A DNA stretch of 64,000 bases from NCBI GenBank assembly GCA_028283855.1, contig JAPWJX010000003.1:124001-188000 (forward strand), given 5' to 3'. Origin of the DNA: Verrucomicrobium sp. GTDB taxonomy: Bacteria; Verrucomicrobiota; Verrucomicrobiia; Methylacidiphilales; GAS474. The notes below the pieces were generated by a model, which saw nothing but the letters and a program-made list of their open reading frames with translations, searched no databases and was not told the origin of the DNA. The translations under genes and the position numbers were made by a program. Positions 41,613 through 51,782 of this stretch are shown here, piece after piece. The first letter of the stretch is position 1; each line of letters starts with the position of its first letter.

Positions 41613-42986
41613 GTGGAAGACACGCCCGCCGAGCATCTGCCGCCGCCCCTGCCCCGGCGCTTCGCCCTGAAGCGGGACCGTCTGGCCGGGGTCCTGGGCC
41701 TGGTTTGGGCCGTCCTCGTCGCCCTGCTCTACGCCTGCGGCCTCTTCGACGGGCTGGAAGACAAGGTGCGGGACTGGGAGCAAACAGTCCTCCCCTCCCG
41801 CGCGGGGAGCGACGACTTCGCCTTCGTCTCCATCGACCGCGTGCCGACCGACCGTCCCTGGCCCTGGGCCCGGCTGGAATACGCCCTCCTCCTGCGCGCC
41901 CTGGTGCCCGTTTCGCCGCAGAGCGTCGTCTTCGAGATCCCGATGCACGACCGCAGCCCGCGCACCGACGCGTTCGACCAGAGCTTCGCCCGGCAGGTGG
42001 GCCGTTTCGAGCCGCAGCGGATCGTCTTCGCCGCCTCCGCCATCCAGGCCGAGGCGGGCGCGCCGCAGGGCGGCACCCTGCCCGGTCCCGCCCTCCGCGT
42101 CCGGGGCGGGGCGGCGCCGCGCCTGCCGCTTTTTTCCGCCGCCTGGGGCCCGGTGGAGGCCTTCTCCGACCGGAGCGCGGTGGGCATCGCCAACTTTTCC
42201 TGCGCGCCGGACGAGACGCTGCGGCGGCTGCCGCTGGTCTTCGCCGTGGAAAAGGAAAAGGGGAAGGATGTCCAGGTCCTCCCCTCCCTGGTTCTGAGCG
42301 CCGCGGCCGCCCGGCTCGACGCCGACCTTTCCCAGAGCGAGCTGGTCCCCGGCCGCGCCGTGGTGCTGCGGGACAAGGCGGGGCGGAAGCTGCGCCGTAT
42401 CCCGGTCGATAGCGAGGGACGGCTTCTCCTGCGCTGGCGCCGCCCCGGGGTGCCGCCCCTGCGCGTCGCCTATGACGATTTCCTCCTCTACGCCGACCAG
42501 ATGGAGCGCGGCGTGCCCGCCCGCGTCGACCTCCGGCGGCTGGCCCGGCGGCAGGTCTGGATCGGCCTGGCCGATCCCGCCGTCTCCCCGCTGCGCCGCA
42601 CCGCCGTGGGCGATCTGCCCGCCGCCGCCGCGGGCCTGGCGGCCGCCGGACAGATCGAGCGGGGGGACTTTCTCCTGCCGCTGCCCAGGTGGGCGGCCAT
42701 CTTCCTTTTTCTGGCCACCGGCACGCTGCTGGCCTACGCGATGGAGCTGCTGGCCCCCTCCCGCGCGCTGACGATGGTGCTGGGGCTGGCGGCGCTCTTG
42801 GGCGCGCTGGGGCTGGGAGCGTTCTGGCTCAGCGGCCTCTGCCTGCCGTTGGGGGCGCTGGGCGTGCTGCTCTGCGGCACCTTCGTGGGAAGCCGCGCGG
42901 CGCGGCTCTGGGAGGTCGATCCGCCGCACCACCGGCCGGTGGAAATCGCCGCGCTGGAAGAGGAAAACGCGCCGTCGGACGCCTAG
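41613..42986 (+). CDS. CHASE2-domain membrane protein
   Basis: 457 aa. One N-terminal helix (GVLGLVWAVLVALLYACGLF), then an extracytoplasmic CHASE2 sensor domain (FAFVSIDRVPTDRPWPWARL, SVVFEIPMHDRSPRTDAFDQ, RRLPLVFAVEKEKG), and three C-terminal helices from about residue 350 (FLFLATGTLLAYAMELLAPS). Unlike most CHASE2 proteins, no kinase or cyclase output domain follows. GTG at 41613. It probably transmits an unknown signal to a partner protein. Confidence 0.75.
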   Translation: MEDTPAEHLPPPLPRRFALKRDRLAGVLGLVWAVLVALLYACGLFDGLEDKVRDWEQTVLPSRAGSDDFAFVSIDRVPTDRPWPWARLEYALLLRALVPVSPQSVVFEIPMHDRSPRTDAFDQSFARQVGRFEPQRIVFAASAIQAEAGAPQGGTLPGPALRVRGGAAPRLPLFSAAWGPVEAFSDRSAVGIANFSCAPDETLRRLPLVFAVEKEKGKDVQVLPSLVLSAAAARLDADLSQSELVPGRAVVLRDKAGRKLRRIPVDSEGRLLLRWRRPGVPPLRVAYDDFLLYADQMERGVPARVDLRRLARRQVWIGLADPAVSPLRRTAVGDLPAAAAGLAAAGQIERGDFLLPLPRWAAIFLFLATGTLLAYAMELLAPSRALTMVLGLAALLGALGLGAFWLSGLCLPLGALGVLLCGTFVGSRAARLWEVDPPHHRPVEIAALEEENAPSDA

Positions 42987-43358: not shown

Positions 43359-44144
43359 TCAAGAACCGGCTGCCGCGCCGAACCGCCGCCAAAGCGCCAC
43401 CCATTCCGCGACGGAAAGGGCGTCGGGACGGCGATCTTCCGGCACGCCCAGGGTGTTCGAAAGCTTTTTGCGGCGCTGGGAAAAACCCTTCTTCACGAAG
43501 GCCAGGAAAGCGGCCCGTTCCCCCTCCGGCAGGTGGGGGGCGGGCAGGAGGTCCAGGACGACGACGGCGGAATCGACCTCCGGCTGGGGATAGAAAACGG
43601 AGGGCGGCAGGACGCGGGACAGCCGGGCCGCGTAGGCGCTCTGCACCTGGACGGTGAGGGCGCCGTAAGCCTCCGTCCCCGGCTTGGCGGCCAGGCGCTC
43701 CGCGACTTCCTTTTGCAGGGTCAGGACCATCCGCCGGGGCGGCGGAGAGAAGGCCAGGAATCCGGCCAAAAGCGGGCCGGAGATATAGTAAGGCAGGTTG
43801 CCGGCGACGAGCTGCGGCGCGGCGGTCTCCGGCAGGAGACGCAGGGCGTCCCCCTCCCGCAAGGTGAAGCCGGGCGCGGCGGCGAAACGCTCCCGCAGGA
43901 AGGCGGCCAAGCCGCGGTCGATCTCCAGCGCGGTGACGGGGCAGCCCGCCTCCAGGAGGAGGCCGGTGAGCGCGCCGAGGCCGGGACCGACCTCCAGCAC
44001 GGTGGAGCCGGCGGGCTGGCCCGCCAGCGCGTCCGCCACCACGGCGCGGGCGGCGTTCTGGTCGTGCAGGAAGTTCTGGCCGAAGCGGGCCAGCGGGCGC
44101 ATGCCGCGCGCGGCCAGCTCCCGCTTGATCTCCGTGAGCGTCAT
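43359..44144 (-). CDS. rsmA: 16S rRNA dimethyladenosine transferase
   Basis: 261 aa SAM enzyme that dimethylates two adjacent adenosines near the 3' end of 16S rRNA. Visible motifs: LARFGQNFLHDQNAARAVVA, VLEVGPGLGALTGLLLEAG (SAM-binding), ALEIDRGLAAFL, GNLPYYISGPLL (catalytic NLPY), and VVVLDLLPAP near the C-terminal domain. Normal length. ATG abuts the TAA of the alkaline-phosphatase-like gene. Confidence 0.96.
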   Translation of the reverse strand: MTLTEIKRELAARGMRPLARFGQNFLHDQNAARAVVADALAGQPAGSTVLEVGPGLGALTGLLLEAGCPVTALEIDRGLAAFLRERFAAAPGFTLREGDALRLLPETAAPQLVAGNLPYYISGPLLAGFLAFSPPPRRMVLTLQKEVAERLAAKPGTEAYGALTVQVQSAYAARLSRVLPPSVFYPQPEVDSAVVVLDLLPAPHLPEGERAAFLAFVKKGFSQRRKKLSNTLGVPEDRRPDALSVAEWVALWRRFGAAAGS

Positions 44145-45404
44145 TTAAAACAAAGGCTGAAGGAGCCCGAAGACCTGGTCGTTCCCGATGAAGCCGCCGA
44201 AGCGGTCGGAGAGGAAGCCGCCCGCGCCGAGCCACGCCGGGGCGGGGGTGATCTCCGCCGCGCGGGAGAAGCGGACGGCGGGACCGGGCTGGAGCGGGCT
44301 GCCCGCCTTGGAGCAGAGGACGCCTTCCTTTTCCTGCGCGGCCAGCCAGGCGCGGTCCGCCGCGGAGGCGGGCGGGCCGCCCGGGCCGGAAAGCCATTCG
44401 GCGGAAAGCGGGCCGGAGGCCAGCGCGGAGCGGGCGGTGTCCAGGGCGCCCAGGCTGTAGTTGCTCACCACCACGACGAGGGAGCCGGTCCCGGCGTAGG
44501 CGCGGGCGGCGCCCACGGCGGAGTCGAGCGCGGCGACCTCGCCCAAGGCCAGGTCGGTCCAGTTGTGGCGCGCCGCCGCCTCGATCATCCCCTGGTCGAC
44601 GACCAGAAAGTAGCCGCCGATGCTGTATTGCAGGCACTTGATGGCCATGCGGGTCATGTCGGTCAAAGTGGGCTGGAGATGGGCCCCCTGGATGAGGGCC
44701 GGGAAGCAGAGGGAGCCCGGCGCGAAAAGGCCCAGGAGCTGCCGCGTCCGCCAGCTGGGCAGGTGGTTGAGCTCCCCCGCCTCGTGAACGACGGTGAAGC
44801 CCGCGCGGGCGGCGTCAGCCTCCAGGTCGCGCTCGTCGGTGCGGCCCCGGGGGTTGAGGACGTTGGCCCGGCGGAAATACTGGCTGCCGCCGCCCAGGAT
44901 CACGTCGATGCCGGAGGTGTCGATCAATTCGGCGGCGTTGTGCTGCTCCGTGCCGGCCTGGCCGGCGTTGCGCCCGTAGAAGGCCAGCGGGGTGGGATCG
45001 GTCAGCTGGCGGGTGGTGACCAGGCCGGTGGCGCGGCCCGCCCGCTGCGCGGCGTAGATGAGGGTGTTGAGCCGGGTCTGCTCCGCCGTGAGGCCGACGA
45101 GGCCGTTGCGCACGCGGCGGCCGGAGGCCAGCGCGGTGGCGGCGGCGGCCTCGTCCGGGATCGGCTGGCCGACGCCCTGCACGTCGACGACGCAGAGCTG
45201 GTTCAAGTTGTCCAAGTCGAGCGGCTGGCCGCGCGCGGCGGCCTCCCGCCGGGCCTGGTCCAGCAGGGAGAGGTCGAGGCCGTTGGCGACGAAGAGGATG
45301 ATCCCGTGCGGTCGCTGGGCGACGAAGGTGCGCACGTAAAACATGCCGAGCGCCGAAAAGACGACCAGGACGAGGAGCGCCAGGAGACCGACCCACCATT
45401 TCAT
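44145..45404 (-). CDS. alkaline-phosphatase-fold pseudoenzyme, membrane-anchored
   Basis: 419 aa with one N-terminal helix (VGLLALLVLVVFSALGMFYV). The chain follows the PhoA fold: GIILFVANGLDL, then PDEAAAATALASG (residues 83-95), VTTRQLTDPTPLAFY, DVILGGGSQYFR and YFLVVDQGMIEAAARHN. The catalytic residues are changed: the nucleophile Ser (PDSA in PhoA) is Glu85, the DGMG Asp is replaced (ANGL), the usual DH of the C-terminal metal site reads NY (VSNYSLG), and the HxxxH pair has one His. Hydrolysis is unlikely; a binding or structural role is inferred. First gene of an rsmA operon. Confidence 0.65.
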   Translation of the reverse strand: MKWWVGLLALLVLVVFSALGMFYVRTFVAQRPHGIILFVANGLDLSLLDQARREAAARGQPLDLDNLNQLCVVDVQGVGQPIPDEAAAATALASGRRVRNGLVGLTAEQTRLNTLIYAAQRAGRATGLVTTRQLTDPTPLAFYGRNAGQAGTEQHNAAELIDTSGIDVILGGGSQYFRRANVLNPRGRTDERDLEADAARAGFTVVHEAGELNHLPSWRTRQLLGLFAPGSLCFPALIQGAHLQPTLTDMTRMAIKCLQYSIGGYFLVVDQGMIEAAARHNWTDLALGEVAALDSAVGAARAYAGTGSLVVVVSNYSLGALDTARSALASGPLSAEWLSGPGGPPASAADRAWLAAQEKEGVLCSKAGSPLQPGPAVRFSRAAEITPAPAWLGAGGFLSDRFGGFIGNDQVFGLLQPLF

Positions 45405-45443: not shown

Positions 45444-46022
45444 TCAGCCCTCTTCGATGAGGACGGGCCGCCCCGCCGCGCGCTCCAGGAGGTCTTTCTT
45501 CCTCTCCGCGCCCTGCCGCTCTTCCTTCCACGATCCGGCGACGACGCGCACCCGCAGCGCCCCGGGCTCCAGGACGGCGGAGACCCAGGCCACGCGCCCC
45601 TCGTGCGTCCGGTCGAGGGCGTCGGCCACGCGCAGGAGGCCGCCCAAGCGGTCGACCTTGGTCCGCGCCGCCGGGGGCAGGGCCATATAAGCCTCATGCT
45701 CCGGGGCAGGCAGCTCCTTGCGGTGATAGCGGGCGATCTGGGCGACGACGGCCACCTCGTCCGCCGTCAGGCCGGGCCAGCTCCGCGCGGCGATGAGGCG
45801 GGCCGATTCCAGGTGGTGGCCCCGGCCGCCGGGCTGGGATTTCCCGCTGTCGTGCAAGAGCGCGGCCAGGCGGAGGAGGAGCCGCTCCCGGTCCCCGTAG
45901 CCGTGCCAGGAGAGGAGGGAGGAAAAAAGCTGTTCGGCCAGGGCGGCGACCTGGGTGACGTGCTCCGGCTCGCGCTCGTATTCGGCGACGAGGTAGCCCG
46001 CCATCCGCTCCGCGTCCGTCAT
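45444..46022 (-). CDS. HD-domain phosphohydrolase
   Basis: 192 aa. HD metal site in LRLAALLHDSGK (His-Asp pair), with an upstream His in the first helix (EHVTQVAALAEQLFSS) and later GHHLESARLIA and ARYHRKE. ATG at 46022 overlaps the stop of the Ppx/GppA gene, and E. coli Ppx/GppA has a similar C-terminal HD domain, so the two polypeptides together resemble one enzyme. Probably a nucleotide or polyphosphate hydrolase. Confidence 0.83.
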   Translation of the reverse strand: MTDAERMAGYLVAEYEREPEHVTQVAALAEQLFSSLLSWHGYGDRERLLLRLAALLHDSGKSQPGGRGHHLESARLIAARSWPGLTADEVAVVAQIARYHRKELPAPEHEAYMALPPAARTKVDRLGGLLRVADALDRTHEGRVAWVSAVLEPGALRVRVVAGSWKEERQGAERKKDLLERAAGRPVLIEEG

Positions 46023-46951
46023 GTGCCGAGGTCCTCCCGCAGCTGCTCGAGGACGCCGTAGCGCAACCCCCGCGTGCTGACGGTGACATGCGGCGCGCCG
46101 AGCAGCCGCAGGCTGGCGGCGAAAACCGCCGCGCCGGGCAGGACGATGTCGGCGCGGCCCTGGGGCATGGCGGGAAGCGCCTGGAGGGTCTCCAGGTCCC
46201 GCGCGGCCAGGAAGTCGACGAGGGCCTCCAGCCTCTCGCGTGTCAGGCGGTGGCCGTGGATGCGGGAGGCGTCGTATTCCTTCAGGCCCAGGTCGAGCGC
46301 CGCCGCGACGTTCAGCGTGCCGCCGGTGCCGACGACTTCGCGCCCCTCCAGGGCGTATTTGGCCAGCACCGGCTCCAGCTGTTGAAGGAGGGTCTGCCGC
46401 ATAAGCTGGAGGCCCTGCCGGGGCACGGGATATTCGGGCAAAAAGCGCTCGCGCAGGCGGACGGTTCCCAAGGGCAGGCTGGTGCGGCGCAGGACGCCGG
46501 AATCGCCGCCCAGGACCCACTCCGCGCTGCCCCCGCCGACGTCGATGCCCATCAGGCGGCGGCTGGGCAGATTCGGGTCGGAGCAGATGCCGCGGTAGAT
46601 GCCGTCGGCCTCTTCCTCCCCGGAGAGAAGGAGAATGGGATGACCCAGCACCTCGGCGGCGGCTTTCAGGAAACGCTTGCGGTTGCCGCTGTCGCGGACG
46701 GCGCTGGTGGCCACCGCGCGGGAGTTCTCCGGCGCGGCGCCGAGCTTGTCGGCCTTGCCCCGCAGCTTGGCCAGGGCCTCGAGCGTCCGCTCGATGGCTT
46801 CCTCCTTCAGCTCGCCGCGGACAATGAGGTCTTCCGCCAGCCGGGTGGTCTTGCTCTTTTCCGCCAGGATCTCCGGGGGGCGGCCGGGCCTCACCTCGGC
46901 GACGAGGAATTTGACCGAGTTGCTCCCGATGTCGTAGACGGCGCAGCGCAT
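46019..46951 (-). CDS. Ppx/GppA family phosphatase
   Basis: 310 aa ASKHA-fold enzyme hydrolysing polyphosphate or (p)ppGpp. Has AVYDIGSNSVKFLVAE at the N-terminus, VATSAVRDSGNRKRFL, EEEADGIYRGI, IDVGGGSAEWVLG and VGTGGTLNVAAALDLGL. It stops at the end of the N-terminal two-domain unit (about 310 residues), and the HD part is a separate gene immediately downstream. ATG at 46951 chosen from the conserved start. Overlap of 4 bases with the HD gene. Confidence 0.92.
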   Translation of the reverse strand: MRCAVYDIGSNSVKFLVAEVRPGRPPEILAEKSKTTRLAEDLIVRGELKEEAIERTLEALAKLRGKADKLGAAPENSRAVATSAVRDSGNRKRFLKAAAEVLGHPILLLSGEEEADGIYRGICSDPNLPSRRLMGIDVGGGSAEWVLGGDSGVLRRTSLPLGTVRLRERFLPEYPVPRQGLQLMRQTLLQQLEPVLAKYALEGREVVGTGGTLNVAAALDLGLKEYDASRIHGHRLTRERLEALVDFLAARDLETLQALPAMPQGRADIVLPGAAVFAASLRLLGAPHVTVSTRGLRYGVLEQLREDLGT

Positions 46952-50199: not shown

Positions 50200-50210
50200 C
50201 CGCAAGCCTC

Positions 50211-51782
50211 ATGAAGCGCGCCCTTTTCCTTCTCCTCTCCGCCGCGCTCCCGGCCCTGGCCGCCGCGGAGACCAAGCCCGCGCCCGCCCCGGCGTCCGCG
50301 CCCCGCCACGTCGTCGTCATCGTCTGGGACGGCCTGCGGCCCGACCTGGTCACGGAAGGGACCACGCCCCGCCTCCACAAGCTGGCCATGGAGGGCGCCG
50401 TCTTCCCCGACCACCACGCGGTCTACCCCACCTCCACGGAGGTGAACGGCGCGGCCCTCTTCACCGGCGACGAGCCGGACCACACCGGCATCCTGGCCAA
50501 CAAGGAATACCGCGCCTCCCTCAACGCGGCGATGCCCGTGCGGACGGAGGCCCTCTCCACCGTCCGCCACGGGGACGAGGCGACCGGCAACCGCTACCTG
50601 GGCGCGCCGACGCTGCCGGAGCTGCTTCAGCGGGAGGGCTACACCACCGCCGTGGCGGCGACGAAGCCCGTGGCGCTCCTGGCCGACCGCGCCGGGCGCG
50701 ACGCCGCCTCCCCCTTCCCCGTCCTCTTCCAGGGGGCGACGCTGCCGGAAGCCCTCCTGCCCCACATCGTCGCCGCCTTCGGCGCCTTTCCCGCCCAGAT
50801 CGCCCACCCGAACGCGGCGCAGGACGCCTGGACCACCCGCGTCCTCACCGAGGGGCTGTGGAAGAGCGGCGTGCCGGACTTCTCCCTCCTCTGGCTCTCC
50901 GAGCCCGACTACAGCCAGCACCAATCCTGGCCGGGCTCCAGCGTGGCGGAGCACGCCCTGCGCAGCGACGACGACTGCCTGGGCCGCGTCCTGGACGCCC
51001 TGCAGAAACAGGGCGTGGCGGAGCAGACCGACGTGATCGTCGTCTCCGACCATGGCTTCTCCACGGTGAACCGCACCGTCGACCTCAGCGGCGCGCTGAA
51101 CGGGAGCGGCTTCGAGGCGGTGCGGGAATTCGCCGCCGCGCCGCGCAAGGGGCAGATCCTCGTCGACAGCCTGGGGGGGAGCGCCTTCCTCTACGTCGTG
51201 GGGCACGACGCGGCCCTCATCCAGCGGCTGGTGACATTCCTGCAAAAGTCCGACTTCACCGGAGTCCTCTTCACCCGCGCCGGGCTGCCCGGCACCTTTC
51301 CGCTGGAAACCGTCCGCCTCAACTCCCCCGGCAACGCCGACCTGCCCGACGTGGTCGTCTCCTTCCGCTGGTCGGCCGACCTGAACCGCTCGGAAATCCC
51401 CGGCCTGCTGGTGGCCGACACGGGCCGCAACGTCGCGGAGGGGAGCCACTCCTCCCTGAGCCGCTTCGACCTCCACAACACCCTCATCGCGCGCGGGCCG
51501 GACTTCAAGCCGCGCTACGTCGACACGCTGCCCACCGGCAACATCGACCTGGCGCCGACGCTGGCCTCCCTCTTCCGCCTGCGGCAGGCGCCGCCCATGG
51601 ACGGCCGCGTGCTGGCGGAGGCGCTGGCCGTGCCCCCGGCCGACGTGCCCGTGCCGAAGCTGGAGCAGTCCAAGCTCACCGCCTCCGCGCCGATGGGCCG
51701 GGGCATCTGGAGCCAATACCTGGTCCTGAAAAAGGCGGGGACGAGCATCTACCTCGACGAGGGCAACGGCGAGAGCCGCTAG
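50211..51782 (+). CDS. alkaline-phosphatase-superfamily phosphodiesterase
   Basis: 523 aa secreted protein (signal peptide to about residue 20) of the nucleotide pyrophosphatase/phosphodiesterase class. VIVWDGLRPDLV provides the first metal Asp. The nucleophile Thr lies in AVYPTSTEVNGAALFTGDEP, the central metal region is LSEPDYSQHQSWPGSS, and the later metal pair is in VVSDHGFSTVNRT; SHSSLSRFDLHNTLI follows. Catalytic residues are intact, in contrast to the PhoA-like protein at 44145. Substrate unknown. Confidence 0.83.
   Translation: MKRALFLLLSAALPALAAAETKPAPAPASAPRHVVVIVWDGLRPDLVTEGTTPRLHKLAMEGAVFPDHHAVYPTSTEVNGAALFTGDEPDHTGILANKEYRASLNAAMPVRTEALSTVRHGDEATGNRYLGAPTLPELLQREGYTTAVAATKPVALLADRAGRDAASPFPVLFQGATLPEALLPHIVAAFGAFPAQIAHPNAAQDAWTTRVLTEGLWKSGVPDFSLLWLSEPDYSQHQSWPGSSVAEHALRSDDDCLGRVLDALQKQGVAEQTDVIVVSDHGFSTVNRTVDLSGALNGSGFEAVREFAAAPRKGQILVDSLGGSAFLYVVGHDAALIQRLVTFLQKSDFTGVLFTRAGLPGTFPLETVRLNSPGNADLPDVVVSFRWSADLNRSEIPGLLVADTGRNVAEGSHSSLSRFDLHNTLIARGPDFKPRYVDTLPTGNIDLAPTLASLFRLRQAPPMDGRVLAEALAVPPADVPVPKLEQSKLTASAPMGRGIWSQYLVLKKAGTSIYLDEGNGESR

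Follow-up and report, generated by a model that had tools for sequence, protein, structure and literature searches.

We conclude that the 419-amino-acid protein encoded at 44145..45404 on the minus strand of the window, by which we mean the whole 64,000-nucleotide stretch of Verrucomicrobium sp. DNA that was analyzed, is a degenerate member of the alkaline phosphatase family, and its status as a pseudoenzyme is well supported by sequence comparison. All nine of the core catalytic and metal residues are substituted in this protein, which belongs to a single conserved clade whose members have lost the catalytic residues while staying under purifying selection. The reading that we favor, at a probability of about 0.57, is that of a membrane-anchored pseudophosphatase, probably periplasmic, that is retained as a module for binding, sensing, or scaffolding.

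The open reading frame (ORF) starts with an ATG at 45404 and runs without internal stops to a stop codon ending at 44145. Its product scores well above the gathering cut-off of Pfam PF00245 (Alk_phosphatase; E = 1.2e-43; 150 bits, with the cut-off at 24.4) and matches 55 distinct PDB sequences at E ≤ 0.01, the best at 7e-22, all of which are named alkaline phosphatase except for one that is just named phosphatase. These matches place the homology to alkaline phosphatases well above chance, in agreement with the PhoA fold that the initial annotation had recognized from the order of its motifs. A profile of the whole family matches the PDB alkaline phosphatases at an E-value of 3.5e-48. All 25 members of our alignment A1 also match NCBIfam NF007810 (PRK10518.1) at E ≤ 0.01 (best 7.5e-30), yet the window protein reaches only 75.6 bits, where the cut-off is 540, and is consequently not a member of this equivalog; none of the other NCBIfam models matched the 25 aligned A1 members. 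The sulfatase model PF00884 gave no match to the window protein up to E = 1. A structure prediction by AlphaFold2 from a two-row alignment, consisting of the window protein and locus L031 (an uncultured Verrucomicrobium record that duplicates L002), scored low, with a mean pLDDT of 31 and a pTM of 0.22, and the fold is thus assigned from sequence alone.

Residue correspondence was taken from an alignment that includes E. coli PhoA (L052), and PhoA numbering is used throughout. We take the nine core residues of PhoA to be D51, S102, R166, E322, D327, H331, D369, H370, and H412, with D327/H331/H412 and D51/D369/H370 forming the two zinc sites and D51/T155/E322 the Mg site. The window protein is changed at each of the nine (D51N, S102E, R166Q, E322D, D327E, H331R, D369N, H370Y, and H412I). 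Three of these alterations had been pointed out in the initial annotation, and all three are correct by alignment: Glu85 (codon 85, 45150..45152, minus strand; PDEAAAA) occupies the position of the nucleophile Ser102, Asn41 (codon 41, 45282..45284, minus strand; FVANGLD) that of Asp51, the first metal Asp, and Asn315-Tyr316 (codons 315-316, 44457..44462, minus strand; SNYSLG) that of the C-terminal Asp369-His370 pair. The damage extends further than was claimed, with Gln149 (codon 149, 44958..44960) at the Arg166 position, D270/E275/R279 (codons 270-279, 44568..44597) at the positions of Glu322/Asp327/His331, and Ile385 (codon 385, 44250..44252) at that of His412, all likewise on the minus strand; the last is the least certain of the nine, as the alignment is gappy just before H412. 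The Ser102 nucleophile of EC 3.1.3.1 is therefore replaced by E85, neither zinc site is preserved (E275/R279/I385 and N41/N315/Y316), Arg166 is replaced by Q149, and the Mg site (N41/T138/D270) retains one ligand and one conservative change. PhoA residues D153 and T155 are retained as D136 and T138. Catalytic activity of the window protein is predicted to be absent.

The same erosion characterizes an entire clade. A maximum-likelihood tree was built from 74 rows, leaving out the clade rows L023, L028, L036, L037, and L039 as well as L048 and L121; a branch supported at 100/98 separates the 61 degenerate rows from the rest. On the opposite side are E. coli PhoA, the intact paralogs from the order of the window genome (L041, L042, L044-L046, and L049), the class-level intact enzymes L093, L098, and L099, and proteins of a third type (L050, L051, and L100); some long branches meet on this enzyme side, for which the tool issued a warning. 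Within the degenerate clade, the families of the order form sub-clades of their own, a pattern expected under vertical descent, and the family is old and apparently vertically inherited within the class. The third type comprises two PF00245 proteins from the order (L050 and L051, in genomes G006 and G030) and one from the class (L100, in G090), which keep D51, S102, R166, E322, D327, and D369 and share the changes H331N, H370S, and H412D across three families. They form a clade of their own (100/100) and look like enzymes with an altered choice of metal rather than dead ones.

Core residues were counted in 66 rows of the degenerate clade and 33 rows outside of it, leaving out L047, whose frame is broken, and the fragment L101. 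An intact nine-residue site is found in none of the 66 clade rows, which keep zero (16 rows), one (38), two (8), or three (4) of the core residues. Outside the clade, 24 rows keep all nine, four keep eight, three keep six, one keeps five, and one, L048, keeps four, its C-terminus being unalignable. Survival within the clade is highest for D51 (26 of 66 rows), followed by E322 (19), S102 (10), H370 (5), and D369 (3), while D327 (2) and H331 (1) are rarer still and R166 and H412 are never kept. No intact relative occupies the same locus in the 40 countable of 41 order loci (L047, which is in two pieces, was uncounted). Among these 40 order rows, the Ser102 position holds E in 17, A in 16, T and P in two each, and D, Y, and S in one each; Glu85, whose conservation had been proposed as a check, is thus not a fixed new feature. 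The accompanying suggestion of a conserved Asn-Tyr pair stands insofar as an aromatic residue is kept at position 370 (Y in 31 and F in 6 of 40).

To define the range of the family, we searched 60 genomes of the order, including that of the window, which gave matches in 42 genomes and the degenerate gene in 41, the match in the remaining genome (G024) being the intact enzyme L042 only. The degenerate gene is absent from 19 of the 60, some of them nearly complete. In family f8, no PF00245 protein at E ≤ 1e-10 is seen in twelve genomes of genera g11 and g15, which are small and for the most part nearly complete (G014, G019, G023, G027, G031, G035, G038, G041, G044, G047, G050, and G053); this is probably due to gene loss, as the degenerate gene is present in another genus of f8 (G009). 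When 189 genomes sampled from the class were searched with a profile, 108 gave matches and 45 had clade members, 19 of these being from the order and 26 from others; one additional genome (G172) has a fragment that stands outside the clade and non-clade counts. The remaining class matches are weaker, and the part of them that was examined carries intact or third-type sites. We also considered whether clade members occur beyond the class in a phylum draw of 240 genomes at a threshold of 1e-30, where the best match outside the class was 5.3e-47. This was rejected, as the 12 non-class loci examined, which were picked by score and reach into the N-terminus, keep all nine residues (nine loci), lack H412 alone (two loci; the alignment is loose at this position), or keep five (L133).

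Despite the loss of its active site, the pseudophosphatase gene gave Nei-Gojobori dN/dS values of 0.04-0.22 in 14 of 16 pairs, several with dS above 1 (for example, 0.05 for L032/L033, 0.04 for L009/L010, and 0.22 for L002/L003). Two more distant pairs were higher, at 0.43 (L038/L040) and 0.64 (L001/L003), and dS looks underestimated there. For rsmA, the gene downstream, eight of the same pairs yielded similar values, 0.04-0.26. In an entropy comparison of 30 of the 66 clade rows (one to three per family) with 26 enzyme rows, all but one of the nine catalytic columns are invariant in the enzyme rows, and the nine lie at percentiles 0.40-0.93 of variability in the clade rows. Structural glycines and hydrophobic positions are still conserved in the clade. 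The fold is thus retained and the pocket released from constraint. Together with the 66 clade rows devoid of an intact site and the intact enzymes found outside the clade, purifying selection agrees with the earlier proposal of a pseudoenzyme maintained for another function. A class-wide W-L-x-G-P-G-G motif (W337, G340, and P341) was examined as a possible gain of the clade and is instead ancestral, since versions of it occur in the intact enzymes L093 (WTSGPG), L098 (WASGPG), and L099 (FASGPG).

These patterns also bear upon the possibility that the protein is still a catalytic enzyme with a rebuilt site, performing some other reaction via Mg in the old M3 site or via residues from elsewhere in the protein. 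A loose Mg triad ([DE]51-[TS]155-[DE]322) is indeed found in 17 of the 26 class-level rows outside the order, where some metal chemistry may persist, but it is found in only 2 of 40 order rows, or in 15 of 40 when Asn is allowed at position 51. Similarly, the Asp before the nucleophile position (PhoA D101) is retained in 94% of the clade rows, and PMC7576196 reports YejM, a protein that is compared below, as active. On the other hand, the old catalytic columns have not become a newly conserved set, and a search of the class-wide conserved positions for a new Asp/Glu/His cluster found none beyond D101, D201, and D346, which are common to the enzymes. Given also how seldom R166, H412, H331, D327, and D369 survive in the clade, we consider a rebuilt site to be unlikely.

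The pseudophosphatase is predicted to be tethered to the membrane. Residues 4-22 of the window protein (codons 4-22, 45339..45395, minus strand) form a single N-terminal hydrophobic segment with a mean hydropathy of 2.54, and the N-terminus exhibits a conserved MKWR...FV pattern in alignment A1. All 65 clade rows that were scored, from which L036 was omitted, have a hydrophobic 19-residue N-terminal stretch, whose mean hydropathy is 2.27 overall and 1.73 in the lowest row; this bears out the membrane anchoring previously proposed for this protein. Charge bias was rejected as proof of a periplasmic domain, because a recount, made necessary by the bad trimming of L078 in the first count, was weak and hinged on the N-terminal amine. 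With the amine counted, 53 of the 65 rows have the more positive charge on the N-terminal side, 7 are balanced, and 5 are less positive there; with the amine uncounted, the corresponding numbers are 24, 29, and 12; in the window protein, the charge is equal on both sides of the anchor with the amine counted. The alkaline phosphatase family is known for its periplasmic location, and the N-termini of L093 and other enzymes, as judged by eye, resemble cleavable or Tat-type export signals. The periplasmic side is preferred on these grounds, together with the weak charge bias. Thus, the dead domain probably lies in the periplasm, held by an inner-membrane anchor that presumably stays uncleaved.

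Directly downstream of the pseudophosphatase gene, with a gap of 0 nt, is rsmA (43359..44144, minus strand), which encodes the 16S rRNA dimethyladenosine transferase (PF00398, E = 2.9e-42). Upstream on the same strand is an HD-domain gene (45444..46022, minus strand; PF21447/PF01966) that encodes domain III of Ppx/GppA as a separate protein and whose stop is 39 nt from the pseudophosphatase ATG, preceded by a ppx/GppA core gene (46019..46951, minus strand; PF02541) that overlaps the HD gene by 4 nt. The initial annotation had the pseudophosphatase heading a gene pair with rsmA; the pairing is accurate, but the two upstream genes make it an internal gene of an operon-like run rather than the first one. 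Elsewhere in the window, a CHASE2-domain protein (41613-42986, plus strand; PF05226, E = 9.8e-21) is convergent with the rsmA run, and a second protein of the alkaline phosphatase superfamily, a type I phosphodiesterase/nucleotide pyrophosphatase (50202-51782, plus strand; PF01663, E = 1.7e-36), is encoded ~5 kb away.

The linkage to rsmA is conserved within the order, as 36 of 41 loci have rsmA as the next gene downstream in the same orientation. Among the five exceptions, L028, L037, and L039 reach a contig end, L008 has rsmA on the other strand, and L004 has none either in the fetched stretch or in 10.5 kb (L113). The spacing to rsmA was measured at 35 junctions and ranges from -4 to 24 nt at 25 of them; at three others the gap is wider (45, 268, and 328 nt), and at the remaining seven the genes overlap by 85-151 nt, an extent that depends upon the start chosen. 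In 20 of 41 order loci, a ppx/GppA gene precedes the pseudophosphatase gene on the same strand, and a further locus, L024, which is cut off, shows the HD gene alone. Other families of the order also have ppx and HD as separate matches upstream. Outside the order, rsmA was beside none of the 26 class-level members in the stretches fetched and is thus no general partner, which weakens the link to rRNA processing that had been suggested. A fixed genomic partner across the class was likewise rejected, since the neighbors differ by family: a divergent gpmI is adjacent in 5 of 26 class-level loci (L089, L092, L104, L106, and L108, from families f17, f30, and f40), rpoN is a neighbor on either strand in four (L082, L085, L087, and L096), and the others varied. 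The gpmI product is itself a member of a related metalloenzyme superfamily.

It could be argued from this arrangement that the protein specifically assists RsmA or the biogenesis of ribosomes, for instance by recruiting RsmA to the membrane. The tight junctions and the order-wide linkage, in which three of the five exceptions are simply contig ends, are what such a role would predict, and by the charge counts the domain may lie on either side of the membrane. However, the linkage does not extend to the 26 class-level loci, L004 and L008 are differently arranged within the order itself, and the 12 genomes of family f8 described above are without the pseudophosphatase gene. We regard this role as distinctly improbable.

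A prozyme-like role, in which the protein would regulate an active alkaline phosphatase paralog or dimerize with it, requires that such a paralog be present. Of the 41 order genomes that carry the pseudophosphatase gene, 9 do have a second PF00245 protein, and five of these copies (L041, L044, L045, L046, and L049) have a full site; of the other four, L050 and L051 are of the third type, L048 keeps its N-terminal residues and is unaligned further on, and the copy in G037 was unfetched. In the remaining 32 of 41 genomes, several of which are incomplete drafts, there is no other PF00245 protein at E ≤ 1e-10, which indicates that the pseudophosphatase mostly does not act through an active PhoA. 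The window genome (95.6% complete) is among these 32, and for this genome the prozyme-like role is nearly refuted, as any partner would have to belong to a different phosphatase family or be encoded in the 4% that the assembly lacks. Overall, we judge it to be very unlikely. A decaying pseudogene or sequence artifact, for which only the two frames of L047 would speak, can be considered as already refuted by selection and conservation, because the other order loci are open apart from contig-end cuts, dN/dS is well below 1, and the gene is retained class-wide. L047 itself (1327-2617, in the draft genome G029) has both the pseudophosphatase and the following rsmA in two pieces, perhaps due to sequencing error or decay.

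With nucleophile, metals, and arginine lost and the fold under selection, a binding module is the simplest reading. We envision that a PhoA-type enzyme, whose closest intact relative found is L093 (G075), gave rise to a paralog that retained the fold and carried an N-terminal anchor. This paralog would have lost both zinc sites, the phosphate-gripping arginine, and mostly the nucleophile, and in the lineage of the window's order the Mg site would have been mostly lost as well. The present protein most likely resides in the inner membrane with its dead domain in the periplasm, where it would act by binding rather than catalysis, and by analogy with YejM/PbgA it may sense a ligand or protein of the envelope or act toward it as an adaptor or scaffold. 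A more specific version is speculative and, in our estimation, unlikely: across the class, the PhoA-derived pseudophosphatases would span the inner membrane once and sense a phosphate ligand of the envelope (lipid A, another phospholipid, or phosphate), a role attained independently of YejM and from another branch of the alkaline phosphatase superfamily. In the order, the operon-like linkage to ppx/GppA, the HD gene, and rsmA would tie the signal to polyphosphate/ppGpp turnover and ribosome maturation.

In the open-licence literature, no paper was found on pseudoenzymes, alkaline phosphatase, and Verrucomicrobia in combination, nor were PhoA-derived pseudoenzymes mentioned in the titles or abstract beginnings among the matches listed. 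The family provides a natural series from PhoA, an enzyme studied as thoroughly as few others, to a non-enzyme, consisting of intact relatives, members with a residual Mg-like triad, and members with nothing left, and it offers a candidate envelope regulator in a phylum with little-known cell biology. It also has a practical consequence: the pseudophosphatase genes exceed the Pfam cut-off for alkaline phosphatase, and surveys that count phosphatases by PF00245 would therefore score them as phosphate-releasing enzymes.

Two known systems are among the closest to this protein. With the PhoA-type alkaline phosphatases (E. coli PhoA and L093), the window protein shares domain homology, motif order, the GGG loop, the C-terminal end, and common ancestry, but it keeps 0 of the 9 core residues of these enzymes and has a hydrophobic anchor where L093 and other enzymes have cleavable or Tat-like signals by eye. 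The second system is YejM/PbgA/LapC, a membrane-anchored protein with a periplasmic domain, which PMC13125744 and PMC7773988 describe as a pseudo-hydrolase scaffold that is devoid of catalytic residues and senses lipid A. According to PMC7773988, the pseudo-hydrolase domain is proposed to bind lipid A and to signal to LapB-FtsH, and the topology of YejM and its LapB complex are described in PMC9356133. Its inactivity is disputed, as PMC7576196 reports an active magnesium-dependent phosphatase. YejM has a 5-TM domain and resembles arylsulfatases/LtaS, whereas the window protein carries a single hydrophobic segment and is not matched by PF00884 at E ≤ 1; it therefore lacks the combination of sulfatase-like periplasmic domain and 5-TM domain that defines YejM/PbgA. 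What the two have in common is a membrane anchor joined to a periplasmic domain of the same superfamily, the periplasmic side being the probable one for the window protein.
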